Source of the DNA: Telmatospirillum sp.
Lineage (GTDB): Bacteria; Pseudomonadota; Alphaproteobacteria; Rhodospirillales; Magnetospirillaceae
Direction of reading: 5' to 3'
Length of the DNA: 35,638 bases
Assembly (NCBI GenBank): GCA_009712185.1
Contig: WASQ01000089.1
Coordinates: forward strand, 1 to 35,638
Numbering within the stretch: position 1 is the first letter of the stretch; each line of letters starts with the position of its first letter. The notes below the pieces were generated by a model that had not been told where the DNA came from, did no database searches, and was given only the letters and a program-made list of their open reading frames with translations. A program made the position numbers and the translations under genes. Positions 4,570-35,581 of the stretch are shown in pieces.

Positions 4570-4654
4570 GCCGGCCTCCGGCGTCGGTTCGGGGAAAAAG
4601 ACAGCTCTGGAATGGGCATCGCAGGATCTTCCGGGCCGGGCGGAGGGCAAACTT

Positions 4655-4696
4655 CTGACGCCGGCATCCCCGCCCGGCCATGGTGGGCGGATGCCG
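4655..4696 (-). promoter_or_regulatory. Hairpin downstream of the riboswitch (possible expression platform)
   Basis: Directly 3' of the aptamer on the minus strand, GCATCCGCCC can pair with GGGC-GG-GGATGC across a 9-nt loop, a strong hairpin with a two-G bulge. It has no following T run, so intrinsic termination is not obvious. It could act by Rho access or by an alternative fold with the P1 strand. Confidence 0.4.
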
Positions 4697-4806
4697 TCGT
4701 CAAAGGTCTTGCCAAGCAAAAGCCGGAAACGCCATGGACCCGCAAAGGTCCAAGTCTGTTGGCGCATCCCCCTCTGGAGCCGAGGGCGGCTACTCCCCAA
4801 TGACCG
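4697..4806 (-). ncRNA. yybP-ykoY (manganese) riboswitch aptamer
   Basis: Read on the minus strand, the leader of the cation antiporter holds the two hallmark segments of the yybP-ykoY aptamer. The 5' segment is TTGGGGAGTAGCC (about 4800-4788) and the 3' segment is GGCAAGACCTTTGAC (4713-4699). These can pair as P1: GTCA..GG with CC..TGAC. Between them are a hairpin after AGTAGCC, the segment ATGCGCCAACAGACT, and a clean distal hairpin TGGACC-tttgcg-GGTCCA. This family senses Mn2+ and commonly controls Mn2+ exporters, TerC-like and CaCA-type transporters. Order, spacing and the downstream gene all fit. An Infernal search with the family covariance model would settle it. Confidence 0.85.
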
Positions 4807-5028
4807 GGGGAAGGTAACCGGCGGCCGGCAGTAAATCAAGGACGGATCCCCCGCCAACAGATCCCGATCAGGAAAGGGGATGTGGAGTGGCGCTCCCTCC
4901 TTGCCCGGTGTCCCCGTTCCGGTTCCCGGGCTTTCCGGGGCGATCCCTCCGGATCGGCGCTTGCACCCGTCCCAGGGGGTGATATCTGTGATCGGCTGTC
5001 GTTTTCCCGGGACCGGAGAGCCCTGTCC

Positions 5029-25124: not shown

Positions 25125-26513
25125 ATGACCGATCACTTCGACGCCATTACCGGGGATGGCGCCGCGGCCACCGAAACAGAATGGAAGGCCATCGTCTCCG
25201 CCATATCGCCTTCGTTGCGCAGGATCGTCGCCGAGGTCGTGATGACCAACGGAGCCAGTCTTTCCCGGCGGTTTTATGCCGCCATGATGGACGATTCCGA
25301 AGCCCAACTGTATCTTGATCATGAACTGGTCGAGACCCGGTTGCGCGACAGCATGCAACGCTGGCTGGTCGGTCTTTTCGCGGACAGCGGTGAAACGGCG
25401 TCGGTTGGCATGGTGTCCCATCAGCGACATGTTGCCGACAGTCATGCCCGCATCAAAATTCCCATTCATCTGGTCGGTCGCGGCGCCCGGTTGCTGAAAC
25501 ACTGGATCTGGGAGTTCCTGGCGGACGATGTCCGTCTCGATCGGGACGATCTCCGTGGTGCGATCATTTTCGTCAACGATATGATCGATGTCGCCATCGA
25601 CATCATGAACGCGTCCTTTGTCAGCAGTTCCGACCGGGCGGCGCGGATGGACGAGGCCTACCGGCTGTTTTCGTTAAGCCAGGATCTGGCGATCGAAAGG
25701 GAACGGCAGCGCGCATCCCTGCTGGAGTGGAGCCAGCAGATGACCTATGCCGTTCATCGCAAGCCCAAGGCCGGTGTTCCGGGCATCGGCCAATCGGGTT
25801 TCGGACTGTGGTTGACCCACAAGGCGGAGTTCATGTTCGAACGCGCCCCGGAGATCCTTCATATCGTGGCGGCGGTCCGACGGATCGACCACCAGCTTGT
25901 TCCCCGCTTCGCGGCCCCGCTTGCGATGGAGGATCTGTCGGCGCTGTTCGCCCGTCTGGAGACGGAGATCTCAACGATCCAATTCCATCTGACCACGGTG
26001 TTCAACCGCTATTTGGAGGTTGAAAATGGAAGAGATGTGTTGACCCGTTTGTTTAACAGGCGCTTTCTTCCCTCCGTCCTGTCGCGCGAGATCGAACTCT
26101 CCAAACGGGAAAATCACCCGTTCGCCGTGATGCTGATCGACATCGATCATTTCAAACGGGTCAACGACGGCTACGGCCACGACTCCGGGGATGTCGTTCT
26201 CCAGAAGGTTTCCGCCCTGATCATGAATAATGTCCGGGCGGGCGATTTCGTCTTCCGCTATGGCGGAGAGGAAATCCTGGTGGTTCTGGTGGCGGTCGCC
26301 CAGCGGTCCGCACGGACCGTGGCGGAGACCTGGCGGGCCAAGGTCGAGGCCGCGACCATCCCGTTGAGCGGAGGGCGCAGCCTTGGTGTGACCGTCAGCA
26401 TCGGCGTGGCGGCCCATGACGGGCATCCCGATTACCAGAGGCTTGTGGCCCGCGCCGATGGCGCCCTTTACGAAGCCAAGAACGCCGGCCGGAACCGTTG
26501 CCGGGTGGCATGA
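25125..26513 (+). CDS. Globin-coupled diguanylate cyclase (DosC/HemDGC-like)
   Basis: A 462-residue cytoplasmic oxygen sensor that makes cyclic di-GMP. An N-terminal globin (about 15-165) carries the probable proximal haem ligand His107 in VADSHARIKIPIHLVGRG, the sensor-globin signature. A helical middle region (about 170-295) leads to the GGDEF domain (about 300-460). The active site reads GGEEI (380-384) and the inhibitory site RxxD is present five residues before it (Arg371-Ala-Gly-Asp374). DIDHFKRVND is the metal/nucleotide segment. All key residues are there, so it should be active and feedback-inhibited. It stands alone, so its target is unknown. Confidence 0.93.
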   Translation: MTDHFDAITGDGAAATETEWKAIVSAISPSLRRIVAEVVMTNGASLSRRFYAAMMDDSEAQLYLDHELVETRLRDSMQRWLVGLFADSGETASVGMVSHQRHVADSHARIKIPIHLVGRGARLLKHWIWEFLADDVRLDRDDLRGAIIFVNDMIDVAIDIMNASFVSSSDRAARMDEAYRLFSLSQDLAIERERQRASLLEWSQQMTYAVHRKPKAGVPGIGQSGFGLWLTHKAEFMFERAPEILHIVAAVRRIDHQLVPRFAAPLAMEDLSALFARLETEISTIQFHLTTVFNRYLEVENGRDVLTRLFNRRFLPSVLSREIELSKRENHPFAVMLIDIDHFKRVNDGYGHDSGDVVLQKVSALIMNNVRAGDFVFRYGGEEILVVLVAVAQRSARTVAETWRAKVEAATIPLSGGRSLGVTVSIGVAAHDGHPDYQRLVARADGALYEAKNAGRNRCRVA

Positions 26514-26639: not shown

Positions 26640-27617
26640 TTAAGCGGGGGTCTCCGATATTCTTGAGCCATCGCCGGCATCGGCCCTCGGGCCCGCCCCG
26701 GAGCCGCCGGCCGGTATCCTGTCATCCTCAGCGCGGGTCGCTGCCGCCCGCTCCGGCCGGCGCGCCTTTTGCGACGCGGCCAGGTAAAGCATATAGGCCG
26801 ACGCGATCACAATGACGGCGCCGCCCATGATGACATAGCGGTCCGACATTTCCTGGAAAAAGACATAGCCCAGCAGTTCCGCGCACAGCAGTTTCATATA
26901 ATCGACCGTTCCGACGATGCTGGCTTCACAGAGCCGGAGAGCCCGGATTCCCGCCCACTGGGCGATGGCGGCCAGGAGCCCCATCAGGCTCATGGAAAGG
27001 ATGTCTGCCAGGGGGGGCGTCTTCCACAGCCAGATCATCGGCACCGCGCAGAGAAGCCCGACGCATGTCGACAGATAGGCCAGCAGCGTGGCGGTACTTT
27101 CGGTTTGGGACAATCGCCGGACGCTGGTCACGGCGATCGCGCCGCCGAACGCGCCCAGAACCGGGATCAGCGCGGAAACATTGAGCAGGCCGTTCAGTCC
27201 CGGGCGCAGCACGATCACCACCCCCAGAAAACCGGTTCCGATCGCCAGCAGGCGCCGACGGTCGACCGTCTCTCCCAGAAAAAACACCGCCAGAAGCGCG
27301 ACGAAGAAGACCTGCGCGAATCCCAGGGTGACGACGGTCGCGAGCGGCAGCAATGCCACCGCCCAGACCCCGGCGGCAAGATTGATGAACGCGCCCAGCA
27401 GCCGGAGACCATGCAGGACGGGGCGCCTTGTCCGGAAGCTGTCGGGGAAATGGCTGACCAGCGTGGGGACGGCGGTCAGGAACACCACGATCTGACGGAA
27501 CAGCAAAACCTCGAGGAAATGATAGTCCCTCACGAAGACTTTCCCCATGGCCGCGATCACGGCGTACAGCATCGTCGCCAGCAAAGCCCAGAGCGCGCCC
27601 TTCAAACTGTTTGACAT
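26640..27617 (-). CDS. EamA/DMT-family transporter
   Basis: A 325-residue ten-helix drug/metabolite transporter made of two EamA repeats. It begins MSNSLKGALWALLATMLYAV; the end of the first repeat (GFLGVVIVLRPGL) and the second (about 150-285) are clear. A hydrophilic 35-residue Arg/Ala/Gly tail follows. Members export amino acids, metabolites or drugs; the substrate is not evident. The ATG at 27617 is chosen because it starts at helix 1; the frame is open 16 codons further but crosses the promoter-like AT-rich stretch. It is divergent from the RHH gene at 27799, which could regulate it. Confidence 0.87.
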   Translation of the reverse strand: MSNSLKGALWALLATMLYAVIAAMGKVFVRDYHFLEVLLFRQIVVFLTAVPTLVSHFPDSFRTRRPVLHGLRLLGAFINLAAGVWAVALLPLATVVTLGFAQVFFVALLAVFFLGETVDRRRLLAIGTGFLGVVIVLRPGLNGLLNVSALIPVLGAFGGAIAVTSVRRLSQTESTATLLAYLSTCVGLLCAVPMIWLWKTPPLADILSMSLMGLLAAIAQWAGIRALRLCEASIVGTVDYMKLLCAELLGYVFFQEMSDRYVIMGGAVIVIASAYMLYLAASQKARRPERAAATRAEDDRIPAGGSGAGPRADAGDGSRISETPA

Positions 27618-27641
27618 GGTTCCGATTCCCAAGGCGATATA

Positions 27642-27653
27642 ATTGGTACCAAT
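27642..27653. promoter_or_regulatory. Palindromic operator candidate ATTGGTACCAAT
   Basis: A perfect 12-bp palindrome in an AT-rich setting (TATA-rich on both sides), 25 nt upstream of the EamA start, in the gap shared with the divergent RHH gene. Position fits an operator overlapping the EamA promoter. Confidence 0.45.
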
Positions 27654-27798
27654 ATATGATGACACATTATTAAAAACGCACCATCCTACCAGAACGTCGT
27701 GGTCGATCGCGGCTTGTGGCCTGGGCCGGAATACGCATTGCCGGTTGCCGGCGGAAAACGATAAATTCGGGTATCTTTCGCAAAGGGCGAGTGAATTG

Positions 27799-28071
27799 AT
27801 GGACGTCCGGGAAATGAAAAAAGTCGAACGCGTCCAGACGGGCGTGCGGATCGAAAAGCGCCTGCTGAAAATTTTGAAGTCCCTGGCCGCCTACCAGGAG
27901 ATGAGCGTCAGCGATCTGCTGGAGGGGATCCTTCTGCACAGCCTGGAGGGAAAGGTTCCATTCGGTCCCGAAACGCTGGCCATCATCGAGACTTTGCGGA
28001 CCTCTTACGGTCTTGACCTGCGTGCCGACGACAGCCATTCCCTGCTGGAACACCGGACGGATGACGCATGA
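27799..28071 (+). CDS. Ribbon-helix-helix-like small protein, 90 aa
   Basis: A 90-residue protein with an RHH-like segment: a strand (ERVQTGVRIEK), a helix (RLLKILKSLAAYQEM) and a second helix (SVSDLLEGILLHSLEG), followed by a 40-residue C-terminal helix-rich part. RHH proteins bind DNA as dimers and often serve as repressors or antitoxins; no toxin gene is next to it. The ATG at 27799 is chosen; an ATG five codons later is equally possible. It faces the EamA gene divergently and the palindrome at 27642-27653 may be its site. Confidence 0.65.
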   Translation: MDVREMKKVERVQTGVRIEKRLLKILKSLAAYQEMSVSDLLEGILLHSLEGKVPFGPETLAIIETLRTSYGLDLRADDSHSLLEHRTDDA

Positions 28072-28183: not shown

Positions 28184-28888
28184 TCAGGCGGGGGCTCTTT
28201 CCTCGATCGTGGATGACGGGGCCATGCCATAGTTGGTCATGCCAAGGAAGCGTGTGTTCAGGCCCAGGAAAAGCTGGATCAGGAAACTGACGATCAGAAC
28301 GAACAGGAGTGTTGTCAGCCCGACCGGCCCCCCCAGAACCCACCCGACAGCGACAAATCCGGCTTCGAAGGCGGCTTTGGGCACGACGAACGGAATTCCG
28401 AATTTTTGCACCACGGTGATCACCAGCAGATCCATGCTGCGGATTCCGAATCCGGCCACGATGATCAGTGCCGAGGCATAGGAGTCGAGAAGCAGGCCGC
28501 TGCCCGCCAGGATCCAGCGGTTGCCGAGAAGCGTGGTCACGGTTTCAAGACGCAACAGATTCCAAAGGTCGATCAGGAAGCCCACGGACCCCATCGTCAG
28601 GAACACCGAAACGACGGTGACGATGGGAAAGGTACGGTTCCAGGCACACCACAACGCCAGGGACAGGCAGACGATGCCGATCTCGACGACCCCGACCTTC
28701 ACGAACGGCAGGTCGAGGGTGGTGACGATTCCGATGATCATGGCGTGGAGGGGATCCGTGCCGAGGCCGGAATCGATGAACAGTTTGACCCCGAGCGAGA
28801 ACATGCAGCAGCCGATCATCCACTGCGCAACCCGGGTCCGGTCGGGAACCGCCCGCCGCCCGGGCGGGGATAATGTCGATCCGCTCAT
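28184..28888 (-). CDS. YczE/YitT-type integral membrane protein
   Basis: A 234-residue membrane protein with about five to six helices. The family signature near the start is clear: CCMFSLGVKLFIDSGLGTDP (residues about 28-47). Later segments such as GFGIRSMDLLVITVVQKFG also fit. Biochemical function of the family is unknown; in Bacillus, yczE is next to sfp and has been tied to polyketide/lipopeptide production. AAGGAG 7 nt before the ATG at 28888 fixes the start. It is the last gene of the putative hgc-like operon, 65 bp after the alpha/beta hydrolase, so it could export or protect against the product. That role is inference. Confidence 0.8.
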   Translation of the reverse strand: MSGSTLSPPGRRAVPDRTRVAQWMIGCCMFSLGVKLFIDSGLGTDPLHAMIIGIVTTLDLPFVKVGVVEIGIVCLSLALWCAWNRTFPIVTVVSVFLTMGSVGFLIDLWNLLRLETVTTLLGNRWILAGSGLLLDSYASALIIVAGFGIRSMDLLVITVVQKFGIPFVVPKAAFEAGFVAVGWVLGGPVGLTTLLFVLIVSFLIQLFLGLNTRFLGMTNYGMAPSSTIEERAPA

Positions 28889-28953
28889 GAGATGCTCCTT
28901 TGCTGGTGTGTCGTGAGAACCGTCCCGTCCCCGGCCGTTCTGATCGGTGGCGA

Positions 28954-29931
28954 TCATGGCGGCACCGGACAGGGTGGCACCGGAGAGGGGGATCCCTTGG
29001 GGGAGGGCACGGGACCGGAGGCCCGGGTCGTCATCGCGAAAAACTGCCGCATGAGGTCGGCGCAGCGCCGGGGCCGTTCCTCATGCGGGAGATGACCGGC
29101 CCCGGGAACCAGGACCGACCAGCAGTTCCGGATGCGTTTCTGGACGGCGACCGAGCGGGCGACCGGAAGCACCCTGTCTTCCGTTCCCCAGATCAGCAGA
29201 ACCGGTTTTTCCAACTCGGGAAGCTGTTGTTGCAGGTCCCGTTCGCTGAACTGGCGCAAGGTCTGGAGAAAGCTCTCCTCGCCCCGGTCCTTCAGAAGAA
29301 GGTGATAATAATGATCGACCAGCTTCTCGTCCGGGACCAGCCGGGCGTAGGAGGCCCGCAGCTTGGATCGGAAAATTTGCCGGCCGAAGCCTTTTCGCAG
29401 CAGCGCGTTGCGCATGGCATAGCGCAACAGACCGATGCGGGCGGCCCGTTCGACCGCGTGGGTTCCCCCGTCGATGCCGACGCTGTTGATCAGGACGGCC
29501 CCCCGCACCAGTTCGGGGAACCGGATCGACAGCGTCGCGGCGACAGCCGCGCCGAAGGAACTGCCGGCCACGAAGACCTGATCGATCCCCAACCTGCCGC
29601 AGAAGCGGGCGATCTGAAGGCTGATCGCGTCCAGGCTGTAGTCGCCCAGGCTCTTGTCCGACGCGCCATAGCCGGGCATGTCGAGGGCGAAGACGCGGTA
29701 ATGCGCCGACAGTTCGAAGAACAGATCCTGCCATGTCGCCATGGCGAGGGGGATGCCATGGCACAGCAGGACCGCCGGGCCGTCGCCCCGGCAGGCGTAT
29801 CGGATCCTTCGTCCGTCGATCAGGATGTCGGAGCTGTAGGGCGCCATCCGATCCTCGAACGACAGGGCCGACAATGCGACCTCGTCCCGGCCTTGTCCCG
29901 GCGCCTCGTCGATGAGTCCCATGCCGGTCAT
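28954..29931 (-). CDS. Alpha/beta hydrolase, intact catalytic triad
   Basis: A 325-residue alpha/beta-hydrolase-fold enzyme. The oxyanion-hole segment HGIP is at 58-61, the nucleophile Ser125 in AGSSFGAA, the acid Asp252 (WGTEDRVLP) and the base His280 (GAGHLPHEE). The sequence resembles C-C bond hydrolases and esterases of the MhpC/DhaA-like group. An odd Pro/Ser tail ends the protein (PVPSPKGSPSPVPP). It overlaps the stop of the ThiF-hydrolase fusion by four bases (ATGA), so the two are translated together; the fusion has a damaged triad and this one an intact triad, which suggests a working pair. Substrate unknown. Confidence 0.88.
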   Translation of the reverse strand: MTGMGLIDEAPGQGRDEVALSALSFEDRMAPYSSDILIDGRRIRYACRGDGPAVLLCHGIPLAMATWQDLFFELSAHYRVFALDMPGYGASDKSLGDYSLDAISLQIARFCGRLGIDQVFVAGSSFGAAVAATLSIRFPELVRGAVLINSVGIDGGTHAVERAARIGLLRYAMRNALLRKGFGRQIFRSKLRASYARLVPDEKLVDHYYHLLLKDRGEESFLQTLRQFSERDLQQQLPELEKPVLLIWGTEDRVLPVARSVAVQKRIRNCWSVLVPGAGHLPHEERPRRCADLMRQFFAMTTRASGPVPSPKGSPSPVPPCPVPP

Positions 29932-31664
29932 CCTTTCCGGGGCAGGTCGGCCAGGAAGCCGCGCAGGCCGTCGTTGAAGCGTCCGGCCGCCTCCCAGTTC
30001 AGAAAATGGCCGGCATCGGACAGGACGGCGGCCCGGCTGTTCGGGATCATCCGTTCCAGCGTCCGCGCATGGTCGGGAGCGACCAGCAGATCCTCGCCGC
30101 CATGAATGATGCCGACCGGGCAGGAGATGCGGTCCAGCGGCGCCGTCGGACGGAAGGCGTTACCGATCAGGGTCTGTTTGCAGAATTCGTCCGGGTGCTG
30201 TTCGTTGACCCGGTAGAAGGTCTTCAGTTTGTAGATCTCGTCCTTGTTCGAGGCGCGGTAGGTTTTGCCGAAGATCCAGTCGATACTGTCGTCGAAAACC
30301 GCCGTCATCCCTTTGGTCAGGGCGAGATCGCGCCAGCGTCCCGTGACATCGGCGATGGTCCGGTCGGCTTCGGCATAGGCGGCCGCGACGAACAGCCCGG
30401 CGATCCTGTCGGGGCGGAGCAGGGCGCATTGCAGGGCGATCAGTCCGCCGAGGGCGGAGCCGACCAGAACCGCGTCCTCAAGCTTCAGGAAGTCCAGCAG
30501 ATGGATCACATCGGCCGCCATGGTCGCCACATCCGCGTCGGCCGGCAGCGGCGAGGAGCGCCCGGCGCCGCGGTTGTCGAGGGTGATGACGCGGAAATCA
30601 GCCGCCAGCGCCGGCGCCTGCCGCGCCCAGAAACTGGTGTCGCCGCCCACCGGAGGAATGAGCACGACCGGGCGCCCGTCGCCCTCGCTCCGGTAGCAGA
30701 GCCGGCCTCCGTCGGGCAGATCGAGTGTCGCCGCGCGGACCTTCCGGTAGAAATGGTCGAAAATATTGACGACCAGAGAACTTTTGTCCTCGATGCCCTC
30801 GATCACGTCGCTCGGGTCGTAGGCCGGCATTCCCCCGTCGATATAGACGGACTCGTTGCGGAAGGTGCAGGGATCGTATTGCAAGGTGTGCGGAATGACG
30901 CGGGGCTTGCGGCGTCCGACCAGGATCATCGCGACCTCGCCGGCCACCAATGCCGCGGCCAGGGTGCAGGCCGAGGCCAGGGACGGGCCGCTGCGGTTCA
31001 GGAAATCGGTATTCGAATTCTGTTTCGAGACGTCGTAATAGCTGATGTGCGCAAGCCTCGGCACAATGCCGCAGGCATAGCGCAACTGCCTCTCCACGTC
31101 GTTCATCTCCGCCGTGATCCCGCAATAGTCCTCGATACTCATGCCGTCGGGATCGAAGATTTGCAGGCAGGCGCTGAACCCCACAGGGGACCCCATGAGA
31201 ACATAAAGACCCTTCCGCCGGGCGGCGCGATGCAAGGTGAGGTGATCGTCGATCGCATAGAAGTCGATGGCGTCGATGCAAAGGCCGCAGCCGTCGAGAA
31301 CGGCATCGGCGATGCCGTCCGCGAAGCGTTCCGTCCAGACGGTCACGGAGGCCAGCGGATTGATGTCCAGGATCTCGTCGCGCAGGACCTCCACCTTATG
31401 GCGTCCCTGCGTGGAGACCTTGGCTCCGAACTGTCTGTTGATGTTGGCCAGCTCGAAGACGTCGGGATCGACGAGATGGAACCGGCCCACCCCCATTCGC
31501 GCCAGAATGGACAGGCAACTGCTGCCGATGCCGCCGGTGCCGATCACCGCGACCGTCGCATTGGCGAGGCGCGCCTGTTCCTCCTGCGTCAGGATCCCGA
31601 GATTGCGGGAAAAGGAGGTGGCATAGGTCGGGTCCGTATGAATGCTGTTCAGGCTGTCGGGCAT
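29928..31664 (-). CDS. ThiF/E1-like adenylyltransferase fused to an alpha/beta-hydrolase domain
   Basis: A 578-residue two-domain protein. Residues about 20-290 form a ThiF/MoeB/E1-like activating domain: GTGGIG (42-47), DPDVFELANINRQ (66-78), Lys90 in GRHKVEV and DAIDFYAID (131-139). No zinc CxxC pairs are visible. This family adenylates a C-terminal carboxylate of a small carrier protein, peptide or other acid. Residues about 305-578 form an alpha/beta-hydrolase domain. Its nucleophile elbow reads GSALGG, so the position of the catalytic Ser is Ala404, while Asp525 (GGED) and His553 (AGHFLNW) remain. The hydrolase half may be a pseudo-enzyme or act by another chemistry. The start has GGAGGGGGA upstream. 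Confidence 0.88.
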   Translation of the reverse strand: MPDSLNSIHTDPTYATSFSRNLGILTQEEQARLANATVAVIGTGGIGSSCLSILARMGVGRFHLVDPDVFELANINRQFGAKVSTQGRHKVEVLRDEILDINPLASVTVWTERFADGIADAVLDGCGLCIDAIDFYAIDDHLTLHRAARRKGLYVLMGSPVGFSACLQIFDPDGMSIEDYCGITAEMNDVERQLRYACGIVPRLAHISYYDVSKQNSNTDFLNRSGPSLASACTLAAALVAGEVAMILVGRRKPRVIPHTLQYDPCTFRNESVYIDGGMPAYDPSDVIEGIEDKSSLVVNIFDHFYRKVRAATLDLPDGGRLCYRSEGDGRPVVLIPPVGGDTSFWARQAPALAADFRVITLDNRGAGRSSPLPADADVATMAADVIHLLDFLKLEDAVLVGSALGGLIALQCALLRPDRIAGLFVAAAYAEADRTIADVTGRWRDLALTKGMTAVFDDSIDWIFGKTYRASNKDEIYKLKTFYRVNEQHPDEFCKQTLIGNAFRPTAPLDRISCPVGIIHGGEDLLVAPDHARTLERMIPNSRAAVLSDAGHFLNWEAAGRFNDGLRGFLADLPRKG

Positions 31665-31807
31665 GGGACTCCCCCTCCGTTAGGGCTTTTCGCGACTTAA
31701 TCGCTCCAAGCCCTTGGTTTTCTGTGGCGCTTCCGCTCCGCTCCAGCGGGGCTCAAACGCCGCTCGGGCTTGAGGGCCTGTTGATTCACCTGGTGATCAT
31801 CAGGTCC
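31665..31807 (-). promoter_or_regulatory. Structured gap inside the hgc-like operon
   Basis: A 143-nt spacer in an otherwise overlapping gene chain. It has a symmetric nested hairpin: AGGGCTT (31682-31688) with AAGCCCT (31708-31714), and inside it GCGA (31692-31695) with TCGC (31701-31704). A competing CCAAG-CC-CTTGG pair overlaps one arm, and CTCAA/TTGAG and AGCGG/CCGCT pairs lie upstream in the transcript. It may hold an internal promoter, an attenuator or an RNA-processing site. Confidence 0.45.
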
Positions 31808-32566
31808 TCAGAGTTGTGCCGCTCTTTTCTGGTAGCGGCCGATTTTCGACAGGGCGCCGGCCACGTCCGTCCGTCCGACATTGACGAACACGTCGCCGGC
31901 GGCGATATCGAGCAGGCTGTCGAAAAGGGCGTTGATGCGGGTGTCCGAGACATAGGGCACGTCGCGGTAGAAAAAATCGCATTCGCGGCGAAGCACGAGC
32001 GTGTCCGGCTCCAGCTCCAGATGCGGGTCGTATTTGGCGACGACCCGGCCGGCCACGTCGACGATCGGCGCCGGGGGACGGGACCGCCCGTCGGGGTGAA
32101 GCGGCGCGATCTTCGACATGATGCTGTAGACAAGGGGACTCTGCGAGATCGAGGTGAAAAAGACCTCGTCGCCGGGCGGCAGGGAGGCCAGCACCTGATC
32201 GGCCAGAATCACGAACAATTGCGCGATGAGTCCGCTGTTGCGCAGCGACCGGTCCATATTGACGCTGCAAAGATGGACGATGTGCCGGTCGTTCCGGCCG
32301 GCATCGAAATCGGTATCGACGCCGGCCGTTCCGACCAGATTGTCGCCGTTGAAGACGAGGGCCATGGCCGTGGCGTTGTAGAAGGGATCGATCTTGAAGA
32401 CCTGCCGCATGTGATCCAGCTTGTCCGGACCCCATCCCCTGGCGAGGGTGGCCAGCCTCAGGAGATCGGGTTCGAGCCGGCGCATGTCGTCGGGGAACTG
32501 GCGCGCGTTTCGCAGCAGATAAAGATCGCAATCGTGAAACCGCAGTTTTTCGGCTCCGTCCAGCAT
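31808..32566 (-). CDS. GNAT-like acyltransferase (probable)
   Basis: A 252-residue soluble protein. The middle (about 65-150) has a GNAT-like pattern: a strand MALVFNGDNLVGTAGVDTDF, then HIVHLCSVNMDRSLRNSGLI with the R-x-x-G-x-type turn that holds acetyl-CoA, and EVFFTSISQSPLVYSIMSK, which resembles the final GNAT strand-helix unit. The remainder is not recognised. The ATG directly abuts the stop of the DUF2817 gene (TGA-ATG), so it belongs to the same operon. Its probable role is acylation of the pathway intermediate. The family call is moderate. Confidence 0.6.
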   Translation of the reverse strand: MLDGAEKLRFHDCDLYLLRNARQFPDDMRRLEPDLLRLATLARGWGPDKLDHMRQVFKIDPFYNATAMALVFNGDNLVGTAGVDTDFDAGRNDRHIVHLCSVNMDRSLRNSGLIAQLFVILADQVLASLPPGDEVFFTSISQSPLVYSIMSKIAPLHPDGRSRPPAPIVDVAGRVVAKYDPHLELEPDTLVLRRECDFFYRDVPYVSDTRINALFDSLLDIAAGDVFVNVGRTDVAGALSKIGRYQKRAAQL

Positions 32567-33673
32567 TCACGCTTCTCCGTTCGCGAGACAGTGGATGGCA
32601 CGATCCAGGAAGTGCAGGGCGCGACGGACGTAACCGATCCGCCAGGCGGGGTCGTCCGGACAGAAGGCGCGCGTCATCCGGGCCCGCGCCGCCTGTTCCC
32701 GGCGCCGGCTGGCGGGAAAATGGGCATGGGCGGAATTGGAGGCCCGGATGGCGAGCAAGGTGCCGAGAGCCGGTCCGGTGCCGAATTCGAAGGTCACGCC
32801 GCAGGCCTCCGTCGCGTCGAGGCGGGCCTTCAGGCCGCCGATGACCTCGCCCCGGGCCGGAAACCCGACCCCCTTCGGACCATGTCCGTCGGCGACGGGC
32901 ACGCCGAAAATCGTCCGGGGCGACAGAGCGGACTCCCCGTGCCCCAAAAGCGAGGCGGCGCCATACCGTCCGACGCCCGAATGCAGGTCGAACAGGATGG
33001 TGCGGGACGCGGTTCCGGCGCCGACCGCGTCGCCGACCGCGGTCAGCAGGGGGGCGAGTTCCGGGGCAAGGGCCCGGCCGCCGAAGAACGGGGCCCCGGG
33101 GGCGAAGAACTGACCGCCGGCCAGTGTTTTGCGGACTGTCGCGAGACCGCCGGAGACCATCGCGCGGGCCAGCGCCAGGGGAACCCAGACGGGGTCCGGC
33201 AGGCGTGAGAGGACCGGACTGCTGAACAGCCGGCCGATGGTCCTGGCCCGCCCGTCGACGCGCGCCAGGGCGGCGTGGTCGAACAGCAGATTGCGGTTGA
33301 GGTCGACATTGTCCCGATTGGTTCGCCGGCCCGCCCGGGCGCCGGCGGGATTGACCATATGCAGGAGGATGACGCGGGTCCCGGGCGGACGGGCGGCGAA
33401 CCGCCGCAGCAGGGCGATCTGGACCGCGCTGCCGCAAAATCCCTCGATCCCGTGGACGCCGCTCAGGACGATCAGGCGGCCGGTCGCCTCCCCGGGGCCG
33501 ATGTCGACCCGGCACAGGCTGTCGCCGCCGGCGATCGGGAACTCGGACCAGCGCAGACCCTGGGCGGCGCAAAGATCGCGCAGGCGGCGCCGGGTATCCT
33601 CGAAGCGGTCGTCATAGCAGTCCAGGATGTCCTGGTCGCTGAGGTCCGCCGGGGGGAGGGAAACGACGTTCAT
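32567..33673 (-). CDS. M14/DUF2817-type zinc peptidase-fold enzyme
   Basis: A 368-residue enzyme of the DUF2817 branch of the M14 carboxypeptidase / aspartoacylase-like superfamily. Zinc ligands are His74 and Glu77 in SGVHGIEGFCGSA, and His231 in LFDLHSGVGRYG. The Asn-Arg motif NRDNVDLNRN is at 119-128, and a candidate general base is Glu296 (VTFEFGTG). Superfamily members cleave C-terminal residues or N-acyl groups. Its ATG overlaps the stop of the HgcAB-like gene (TGATG), so the two are coupled. In this operon it may trim or deacylate a small peptide or amino-acid conjugate. Confidence 0.85.
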   Translation of the reverse strand: MNVVSLPPADLSDQDILDCYDDRFEDTRRRLRDLCAAQGLRWSEFPIAGGDSLCRVDIGPGEATGRLIVLSGVHGIEGFCGSAVQIALLRRFAARPPGTRVILLHMVNPAGARAGRRTNRDNVDLNRNLLFDHAALARVDGRARTIGRLFSSPVLSRLPDPVWVPLALARAMVSGGLATVRKTLAGGQFFAPGAPFFGGRALAPELAPLLTAVGDAVGAGTASRTILFDLHSGVGRYGAASLLGHGESALSPRTIFGVPVADGHGPKGVGFPARGEVIGGLKARLDATEACGVTFEFGTGPALGTLLAIRASNSAHAHFPASRRREQAARARMTRAFCPDDPAWRIGYVRRALHFLDRAIHCLANGEA

Positions 33674-34926
33674 CAGGTTTCTTCCACCGACGTCGCCGGC
33701 TCGAATGCGGCGGATCGTCCTGGCGCCGCCGTTTCCGCGACCGTCATCGCCGCCAGATCGACCACCAGCATCTCGCCCTGGAACTTGAGGGGGGCGCCGA
33801 TCCACCGCGTCTCCCGGTCAAGATGGCGCCAGTCGCGGGTCATGATGTCCCCCAGATTGGCGATGCTCTTGACGTCGCCCTTCCAGTCCCGCGACCGGTT
33901 GAAAAAGGCGTCGGTTTCGCAGCTTTTGACGCAGGCCAGGCATTCGATGCAGTTGTCGGGGCGGACGGCCACGGCCGGCCCTTTCGGCAGGCGGGCCAGA
34001 ACGCCCTTGGGACAGACATGGATGCAGTCGTAGCAGGAGGTGCATTTGTCCGGATCGACGATCGGCTGGAAATGACAGCGGTAGTCGCCCTTCGTCAGCC
34101 AGTGGCGCGGCGTCGTCTTGTAGAGGGTGGAGCTGCCGCAGCCGTCGAGGGAGATCAGCAGCACGATGGCCGAAATCGTGGCGGCCCAGAGGGCGTAGCT
34201 GTCCCCGGCCATGTCTTCCGCCCCCGCGACGGCCACCAGCCCGGCCTGGGCCAGCAGCAGATGTGACAGCGTCTTCGCCCACAGCCGTTCCGTGGGAAGG
34301 ACGTCCCAAAGAGAAAACCAGCTTATGTGCAGAAGAAAGATCAGCCCCATGACGCGGGCGGTATATGCGGGATAAAAGAACGCCAGGGGAAAGATCGTCA
34401 TGCAATAGACGAGAGAGGTGGACAACGCCTGTTCCAGCCTGTCGACAAATCCGAACCGGGCCTGGGTCATGGCATAGGTGCGGCGGTAATTGTGCCGGAT
34501 GTAGTCGGGCAGATCGTCGAGATGGGTCGGTCCCCACACCAGCCGGAACCCGGTCTGCCGGGCGACCTCCGCGGTATCCACGCCGGGGGCCGCGTAGGGG
34601 GGCGCGATGATCCGCCGGCCCCTGACGATATTTCCGATCCCCGAGACATTGATGGCGTCGATGATGTCGAATTCGTTGAATTCGTTCATGCCGGCCGCGC
34701 ACCAGACGTTCGATCCCTTCGAATTCGCCACGATCAGGTAACAGTCGAAGGGGCGCAGCCGTTTCATCAGCCGATGGACGGTCAGCGCGTAATTGCCGCT
34801 GAGAAACACCGGGCTGCCGGCGTCGGGCCGGCCGATCACGCGCAGCCCCAGTTCGCAGGGGAAATTGAAGTGGCGGAAGAAGACGTGGAACAGCTCGAAG
34901 AGCTTGATCTTGATGAAGTCAATCAT
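33673..34926 (-). CDS. Fused HgcA-HgcB-like corrinoid/ferredoxin membrane protein
   Basis: A 417-residue protein that joins both mercury-methylation partners in one chain. Residues about 25-165 match the HgcA corrinoid domain: GRPDAGSPVFLSGNYALT, the cap helix NVWCAAGM (73-80, cobalt-ligand candidate Cys76), RRIIAPPYAAPGVDTAEVAR and GFRLVWGPTHLDDLPDYI. Four membrane helices follow (about 168-262), ending in an HgcA-like GSSTLYK segment. Residues about 290-345 match HgcB: CTSCYDCIHVCPKGV (Cys295, 298, 301, 305) and CIECLACVKSCETDA (Cys326, 329, 332, 336), two [4Fe-4S] sites. It differs from canonical HgcA/B: Lys of the cap motif is Met80 and the late C-terminal cysteines of HgcB are missing. 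It overlaps the methyltransferase gene by 8 bp. Confidence 0.88.
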   Translation of the reverse strand: MIDFIKIKLFELFHVFFRHFNFPCELGLRVIGRPDAGSPVFLSGNYALTVHRLMKRLRPFDCYLIVANSKGSNVWCAAGMNEFNEFDIIDAINVSGIGNIVRGRRIIAPPYAAPGVDTAEVARQTGFRLVWGPTHLDDLPDYIRHNYRRTYAMTQARFGFVDRLEQALSTSLVYCMTIFPLAFFYPAYTARVMGLIFLLHISWFSLWDVLPTERLWAKTLSHLLLAQAGLVAVAGAEDMAGDSYALWAATISAIVLLISLDGCGSSTLYKTTPRHWLTKGDYRCHFQPIVDPDKCTSCYDCIHVCPKGVLARLPKGPAVAVRPDNCIECLACVKSCETDAFFNRSRDWKGDVKSIANLGDIMTRDWRHLDRETRWIGAPLKFQGEMLVVDLAAMTVAETAAPGRSAAFEPATSVEET

Positions 34927-35581
34927 GCCGCTTCACGCCCTCTATCAATTGGAAGGTCGACAGGGGCCAGGTTCTCCGGGCGCGGATTTCGAATCCGGCT
35001 TCCTCGATGACGCCTTTCAGGTCCTTGATGGGGAAAAAGGCGCGCCGCAGGATCGCGAATTGCGGAACCCACATCAGGGTCATGATCAGCCGGAAGAAGA
35101 ACCGGGACAGGCCGCCTTCCGGCCAGACCTCGTCGGCGATCAGCATTTTGCCGCCGGGCTTCAGGATCGTCCGGCATTCCTCGAAGATATGCAGAAGGTA
35201 TTTCTTCGACAGTTCGCCCACCACCATCGTCGACACGATGACATCGACGCTGTCGGGTTCGAAATGCCGGCGGAGGTTGGTGATGCTGTCCTTGACGATC
35301 TCGAACCGGTCGGCGCATCCCGACCGGTCGAGATTTTTCCGGCATTCCTTCAGCATGCTGTCCGAGATGTCCATGCCGACGACGGTCGCGCCCCGCTGGA
35401 CGCATTTGATGCCGAGCGACCCGGTGCCGCATCCGATGTCGAGCACGCGGTCGCCCGGCGAAATCCGGCTGGCGATGGTGTCCTTGATGTTGTCGATTTT
35501 GCCGCCCGTCAGCAGCTTGACGGCGACGTCATAGCGTTCGGGCGCGTATTCCACCCAAACCATCCAACTGTACATCAGCAT
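34919..35581 (-). CDS. Class I SAM-dependent methyltransferase
   Basis: A 220-residue methyltransferase. The SAM-binding motif VLDIGCGTGSLGIKC begins at residue 46 and the acidic ribose ligand follows (GMDIS, Asp71). The later motif VDVIVSTMVVGELS and the LKPGGKMLIADEVWP segment are typical of the UbiE/methyltransferase-11/25 group. The C-terminal part has a hydrophobic helix (about 150-165). GGAGAGG lies just upstream of the ATG. It is the first visible gene of the operon and overlaps the HgcAB-like gene by 8 bp. It could methylate the pathway substrate or load methyl onto the corrinoid; neither is shown by sequence. Confidence 0.9.
   Translation of the reverse strand: MLMYSWMVWVEYAPERYDVAVKLLTGGKIDNIKDTIASRISPGDRVLDIGCGTGSLGIKCVQRGATVVGMDISDSMLKECRKNLDRSGCADRFEIVKDSITNLRRHFEPDSVDVIVSTMVVGELSKKYLLHIFEECRTILKPGGKMLIADEVWPEGGLSRFFFRLIMTLMWVPQFAILRRAFFPIKDLKGVIEEAGFEIRARRTWPLSTFQLIEGVKRHD

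Follow-up and report, generated by a model that had tools for sequence, protein, structure and literature searches.

What would a corrinoid protein of the mercury-methylation type do in an alphaproteobacterium, among genes for enzymes that appear to act on organic compounds? The question arises from a stretch of 35,638 nucleotides of Telmatospirillum sp. (bases 1-35638 of the 61,546-base contig WASQ01000089.1, assembly GCA_009712185.1; the whole stretch is called the window here), where a minus-strand gene encodes an HgcA-like corrinoid protein fused to an HgcB-like ferredoxin. A sequence-only reading of the window had placed this gene in an operon of seven and had suggested that the operon adenylates, acylates, hydrolyses and methylates an organic compound rather than methylating a metal. 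We found that the gene and its neighbors very probably form a conserved biosynthetic cluster, and that a methyl relay through the adjacent methyltransferase CpaM and the HgcAB-like corrinoid is a likely part of it. The full statement, that a regulated cluster for biosynthesis and export has CpaM and the HgcAB-like protein pass a methyl group derived from S-adenosylmethionine (SAM) to a pathway intermediate and not to mercury, is one that we regard as evenly balanced between right and wrong.

By its profile matches, the central protein (33673-34926, minus strand) is an HgcA/CdhD-type corrinoid–ferredoxin fusion, as had been proposed: it passed the NCBIfam model for HgcAB-like proteins (NF043039, 333.7 bits against a cut-off of 285) and the Pfam CdhD model (27.2 against 24.8), and a profile search matched large subunits of the corrinoid iron–sulfur protein (CFeSP) in the PDB at E 1.6e-9, with a weaker match (E 0.0019) for the single sequence. 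Placement outside the HgcA/CdhD corrinoid family, which had been named as an outcome that would refute the proposal, was therefore not what the profiles gave. A corrinoid-binding domain (residues ~21-146) is followed by hydrophobic membrane segments (~167-263), a dicluster ferredoxin (~288-341) and a Cys-free tail. The gene upstream (34919-35581, minus strand), read before as a SAM methyltransferase gene, overlaps that of the fusion by 8 bp, and its profile is that of CpaM (NF043040, 243.8 bits against 180). Both models were also passed in three other loci, with NF043039 at 337.4 in Stappia sp. TSB10P1A (locus L027), 338.6 in the metagenome-assembled genome (MAG) MedPE-SWcel (L028) and 366.2 in an uncultured Defluviimonas (L029), and NF043040 at 247.3, 243.0 and 259.1, respectively. 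CpaM adjoins the fusion in all four loci, Defluviimonas included. All four proteins keep the corrinoid domain and the NVWCAAG cap with its corrinoid-facing Cys (Cys93 type), and the Cys is absent at the cap position in the single CFeSP control row. In hydropathy plots each of the four proteins shows some three to five peaks that overlap, compared with the five transmembrane helices of HgcA. Both ferredoxin cluster motifs are intact in the three cluster members, and the Defluviimonas protein lacks one Cys of the first motif. Because the fusion retains the corrinoid domain and the Cys and adjoins a SAM methyltransferase in four of four loci, a methyl relay is its most likely use.

Is the fusion, then, a mercury-methylation protein? 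It passed neither curated model of the mercury pair, scoring 136.5 for HgcA (NF040863, cut-off 275) and 38.9 for HgcB (NF040864, cut-off 99). As controls, 47 loci were found with the HgcAB-like model, none of them over its cut-off: the phylum to which a Methanoregulaceae MAG belongs gave 30 among 246 genomes (E <= 1e-40), and that of a Bacillota MAG gave 17 among 219 (E <= 1e-50). These were called canonical because a separate HgcB-like ORF (open reading frame) is present and the cap motif equals the published one, a label based on these two features. HgcA could be recovered in 46 controls (L090 is missing from the HgcA counts and trees), and the HgcB-like ORF in all 47. The sequence flanking the 47 controls (~1.5 kb per side where the contig allowed) contained no CpaM-like ORF at E <= 0.01.

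The residues also differ. NVWCAAGK occurs in all 46 recovered HgcA; in the HgcAB-like proteins the Lys, a test feature taken from the control set, is replaced by Met in three and by Gly in one. In HgcB, 45 of the 47 controls have a Cys at +13 from the last cluster Cys and further Cys beyond it, and two have TGA there, whereas a Cys after the second Fe-S motif (the HgcB Cys73 equivalent or a C-terminal Cys) is absent from all four HgcAB-like proteins. An excerpt of PMC7305189 reports that mutation of Cys73 abolishes mercury methylation and that without the two C-terminal Cys it falls by 95%. The TGA codons, in L078 and L085 of the Bacillota sample, take the place of Cys73 (GVG-TGA), which fits the selenocysteine form GVGU listed in part of PMC13188914. 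The HgcA tree proposed earlier as a check (51 rows) put the four HgcAB-like proteins on one branch apart from the 46 HgcA with support 99/97, a bootstrap not fully settled and accompanied by long branches for Defluviimonas and CFeSP. In the joint alignment, 25 of the 57 columns conserved in HgcA are identical in all four. The model scores and the missing mercury-linked residues rule out a bona fide HgcAB identity for the fusion, in line with the earlier suggestion that the operon serves something other than metal methylation.

The gene row proved longer than first described. All seven minus-strand ORFs, mostly overlapping or abutting, were found at 28184-35581 in the ORF list, and a home-made frame-composition gene caller retained the same seven, with starts at 33673 for the DUF2817 gene and 28819 for the YczE gene. 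As an operon the seven are incomplete, being cut by the window edge. Three radical SAM genes, an EamA gene and a ribbon-helix-helix (RHH) gene lay outside the original finding. The operon extends past the window edge on the same contig, where the radical SAM genes lie upstream of CpaM on the same strand (minus; locus L024): an AmrS-type gene (contig 35680-37122, alternative start 37218; TIGR04337, 289.5 against 220), a predicted HemW/HemN-type gene (37154-38461; TIGR00539, 206.3 against 205.4) and a radical SAM/SPASM gene (38498-40006; SPASM domain TIGR04085, 44.3 against 27). The HemW model was barely passed and the other HemN-like models in the list fell below their own cut-offs. For the SPASM protein, the top matches (among the best 25 of 56 families) are to maturases of peptides or enzymes, each under its own cut-off. 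Farther upstream on L024 come two small plus-strand ORFs and then cas-like genes, part of a CRISPR-Cas-like locus with a Cas3-like gene and further cas-like genes that was read by eye at L024 6660-15733.

Downstream of the fusion, the window holds genes for a DUF2817 protein of the M14/AstE-AspA-like metallohydrolase type (32567-33673, likely start 33673; PF10994, 160.5 bits against 23 on the longer ORF 32567-33805), a putative GNAT-like acyltransferase (31808-32566; PF00583, E 0.084, below cut-off), a ThiF/E1-like adenylyltransferase fused to an alpha/beta-hydrolase domain (29928-31664; PF00899, 123.9 bits, and PF00561, 88.3 bits), an alpha/beta hydrolase with a GSSFG nucleophile elbow (28954-29931; PF00561, 105.4 bits) and a YczE-like membrane protein (28184-28957; NF052291, 63.5 against 205), all on the minus strand. 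Given the start at 33673, the DUF2817 gene overlaps that of the fusion by 1 bp; it abuts the GNAT-like gene, which is separated from the ThiF gene by 143 bp, and the ThiF/hydrolase and hydrolase/YczE junctions overlap by 4 bp each. Pfam thus bears out the DUF2817, ThiF-hydrolase and hydrolase assignments of the sequence-only reading, while the YczE-type label stands as a match under its cut-off. Beyond the YczE gene lie a plus-strand gene for an RHH-like DNA-binding protein, a likely regulator (27799-28071; PF13467, 17.9 bits, below the cut-off of 25, on the longer ORF 27643-28071), and a minus-strand gene for an EamA-family transporter, a candidate product exporter (26640-27617; PF00892, 63.6 bits against 28.2 on the longer ORF 26640-27665). 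Elsewhere in the window we observed a manganese riboswitch (yybP-ykoY; 4625-4810, minus strand, 76.3 bits) and, by eye, a protein with a C-terminal diguanylate-cyclase-like GGDEF/GGEE region (25125-26513).

How far is this row conserved? Scanning contigs with two exact short patterns gave six loci. Three of these match the fusion over a long stretch; L030, L031 and L032 matched its ferredoxin end only (L032 from residue 225) and were excluded as relatives of the cluster. Stappia and MedPE share nine core genes with the window genome in the same order, at 51-79% protein identity: radical SAM/SPASM, HemW/HemN-type radical SAM, AmrS-type radical SAM, CpaM (79.0% in Stappia, 77.2% in MedPE), HgcAB-like, DUF2817, GNAT-like, the ThiF-hydrolase fusion and the alpha/beta hydrolase. 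Six of the seven genes first listed are therefore co-conserved in two other alphaproteobacterial genomes; the YczE gene overlaps the operon in the window genome, has no match in L027, L028 or L029 and is not co-conserved. The second outcome named beforehand as refuting, that the seven genes are never co-conserved in relatives, thus did not occur. EamA adjoins the cluster in both marine loci too (57.0% and 52.4% identity), divergent from the SPASM gene there and, in the window, at the opposite end beyond YczE and RHH. In each of the three genomes an RHH gene accompanies the cluster: in the window and in Stappia (62% identity) it is a direct neighbor, and in MedPE it lies ~0.6 kb past the end of L028. 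In Defluviimonas a TetR-like gene (by eye) accompanies CpaM and the fusion, and the other cluster genes have no match in L029.

An ATP-grasp gene and a gene for a large protein (702 residues in Stappia, no profile over cut-off) are common to both marine loci. Neither is on the window contig; the ATP-grasp gene has a weak match elsewhere in the window genome, and the large protein was sought on the window contig alone. The 702-residue protein and its relative (L027 16344-18452, L028 1882-3618) look caspase/CHAT-like by eye, and the neighboring ATP-grasp gene carries a LAL_C2 domain in Stappia.

The fusion is rare in the genomes sampled. NF043039 was passed in 1 of 149 relatives (the genome itself; all 149 gave a match below the cut-off, nearly all to the ferredoxin part among the matches listed), in 2 of 398 genomes of the phylum sample (its own and G477), in 1 of 385 of the class sample (its own) and, among 189 genomes from the order of Stappia, in that of Stappia alone; the GNAT-like protein was found in one of the 398 sampled Pseudomonadota genomes, its own. 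Other members may exist, because the counts come from samples of genomes and contigs were scanned for exact matches to short patterns. Among 72,556 plasmid records, from which records of the own genome were possibly excluded, no match to the HgcAB-like protein (E <= 1e-10) or the GNAT-like protein (E <= 1e-4) was found, and ThiF matched five and AmrS six, all below 60% identity.

The accessory enzymes mostly keep key motifs. Conserved in three of three genomes are the Cys motifs of the radical SAM enzymes, the glycine loop and NRQF region of ThiF, the likely zinc ligands of DUF2817 and, in the separate hydrolase, the GSSFG elbow; these motifs are read as in their families. Where the nucleophile would align in the hydrolase domain joined to ThiF, all three genomes have Ala, so the suggested hydrolysis is doubtful for this domain. 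PF00583 was passed in the Stappia orthologue of the GNAT-like protein (21.6 against 20.7) and in neither the window protein nor the MedPE orthologue, which matched no family, so the original GNAT label is weak. With its three radical SAM enzymes, GNAT-like protein, DUF2817, ThiF and transporter, the set points to a product resembling an amino acid or a peptide that is made and exported.

The cluster is probably regulated by the RHH protein. A palindrome, TTGGTACCAA (27643-27652, no strand), lies between the EamA and RHH genes as a candidate operator, and related TTGGTA/TACCAA-type sites lie upstream of the SPASM gene at contig positions 40047, 40071, 40232 and 40263. TTGGTA or its complement occurs 12 times on the 61.5 kb contig, and six of these sites fall within 804 bp where the cluster ends on either side, at its outer promoters; the corresponding counts are five of seven within 319 bp in L027 and two of three within 317 bp in L028. 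Three of the five clustered L027 sites lie inside the EamA ORF as called, upstream of the start that aligns with MedPE, and the remaining two L027 sites lie upstream of the ATP-grasp gene. In L044, which adjoins L028, the ATP-grasp gene is preceded by two sites and RHH by one. When 60 permutations of the letters were compared, TTGGTA gave the top count inside the edges in all three loci, with overlapping words next at 4 and 3 on the window contig and a count of only 2 in L028. We infer that the RHH protein binds these candidate operators.

How might the parts work together? The ferredoxin domain would reduce the corrinoid to Co(I), which CpaM would then methylate, unless SAM does so directly; an excerpt of PMC11588087 reports for HgcAB that SAM methylates the cobalamin and that a conserved Cys provides Co-thiolate ligation. 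The HgcA-type Cys below the cobalt would make the methyl group available to a pathway intermediate instead of Hg(II). The radical SAM enzymes would modify a substrate that resembles an amino acid or a peptide, an acyl group would be put on by the GNAT-like protein and taken off by DUF2817, ThiF would activate a carboxylate, and EamA would export the product. The methyl acceptor is presumably organic. In a more tentative version, which we hold to be possible and rather doubtful, HgcA-type Cys-ligated methylcorrinoid chemistry would C-methylate a natural product, for example an acyl-adenylate made by ThiF or an intermediate made by the radical SAM enzymes.

Other explanations share parts of this evidence. 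The corrinoid domain, the NVWCAAG cap with its Cys and the dicluster ferredoxin are all kept, and corrinoid methylation by SAM is what the excerpt cited above describes for HgcAB, so the row could hold a functional system for methylating mercury or another metal with the other genes as bystanders. The HgcA and HgcB scores, the loss of the Lys and of the Cys73 equivalent, and the effect of Cys73 on mercury methylation make this very unlikely; nine genes are co-conserved, and therefore the others are hardly bystanders. A metal or metalloid other than mercury might be the acceptor. It is somewhat less improbable, and still unlikely, that the corrinoid–ferredoxin protein is an electron-transfer partner of the three radical SAM enzymes while CpaM methylates the product. 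Such a role would suit the cluster members' intact ferredoxin motifs and the presence of three radical SAM genes in the same row, but a full corrinoid domain with an invariant cap Cys would be superfluous for it, and the Defluviimonas pair occurs without matches to these radical SAM genes.

The identity of the substrate is a further point. The cluster might modify a ribosomally made peptide through the SPASM enzyme and its partners, a version that overlaps with the biosynthetic methyl relay and differs from it in the substrate alone; we consider it conceivable at a minority weight. The general SPASM domain model is passed, and the protein's best matches are to maturases, each under its cut-off. 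Adenylation of a peptide C terminus is within the range of ThiF-type enzymes, as in MccB, which also counts for a peptide substrate. Against this, no conserved small ORF was found outside the genes within the three loci searched; the conserved small ORFs that were found all lie over larger genes. A role in anti-phage defence or conflict is highly improbable. Cas-like genes begin, by eye, ~1.7 kb upstream of the SPASM gene, and in PADLOC the ThiF domain partially matches E1-E2 models and CpaM a mad2 model; these matches are partial and fold-level, involve three of ten proteins, and leave seven without a match at E <= 1e-5. Among the genes called next to the two marine loci, where no cas-directed search was made, none was noticed to be a cas gene. 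A defence identity was rejected on the partial, fold-level character of the PADLOC matches.

Several observations weigh against the biosynthetic methyl relay itself. The HgcAB-like protein might serve as an electron carrier or act on a metal other than mercury, and CpaM could methylate the product rather than the corrinoid. The GNAT assignment, made at the profile level, is weak, the intergenic regions of the three loci yielded no precursor peptide, and three genomes carry the cluster in total. An AlphaFold model of the HgcAB-like alignment (four rows) reached a mean pLDDT (predicted local distance difference test) of 41.9 and a pTM (predicted template modelling score) of 0.33, too poor to support the fold. 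For the regulatory part, TTGGTA sites also occur elsewhere (six on the window contig, one in L028 and two in L045), and the binomial values for their clustering are descriptive, because the motif was picked after looking.

To our knowledge, the role of HgcAB and its fused relatives outside mercury methylation is an open question. The cluster ties an HgcAB relative lacking the mercury-handling residues to biosynthetic genes, which offers a route to ask what HgcA-type chemistry can do without mercury, and one member is in a named strain, Stappia sp. TSB10P1A. If the tentative version is true, C-methylation through a Cys-ligated methylcorrinoid would be of a new kind, such chemistry being so far known for mercury.

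Several known systems resemble parts of the cluster. The AmrS-type protein passes the model of the AmmeMemoRadiSam radical SAM enzyme and has a C-terminal extension of ~110 residues or more beyond it. Memo has no match in the Stappia or MedPE genomes, and the Memo-AMMECR1-like ORF of the window genome is on another contig (L046 1120-2700; reading 4 kb there by eye showed no AmrS gene), so the triad was ruled out on the lack of linkage of AmrS to Memo/AMMECR1. The ThiF domain is related, at 38% over 254 residues, to that of a PRK14852-type protein of Nitratidesulfovibrio vulgaris, in which ThiF shares the chain with a nitroreductase domain and with FeeM, a domain of N-acyl amino acid synthases that has a GNAT fold. 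This protein has no significant similarity to the GNAT-like protein of the window, and its fusion partners and locus differ; on the N. vulgaris plasmid it is encoded beside XrtA/PEP-CTERM genes (L033 7062-10031). No cobalamin riboswitch was found at the gathering threshold in the window, L024, L027, L028 or L029.

With the HgcAB pair, the fusion has in common the corrinoid domain, the cap-helix Cys, the hydrophobic membrane segments and the dicluster ferredoxin; it differs in being fused, in lacking the mercury-handling Cys and the Lys after NVWCAAG, in scoring far under the HgcA and HgcB cut-offs and in its separate branch. Parts of PMC7438021 and PMC7573106 report phyla with other fused HgcAB proteins. 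Another likeness is to the named NF043039/NF043040 pair: both curated cut-offs are passed and the two genes are adjacent, with cluster members at 334-339 bits and the Defluviimonas protein at 366 bits. No paper describing the gene set was found among the listed results of the literature searched. Both families already have NCBIfam names, so the module itself is known and what is new is the genomic setting: the model names carry no wider gene set or function, whereas in this cluster the pair belongs to a row of nine co-conserved genes, three of them for radical SAM enzymes.

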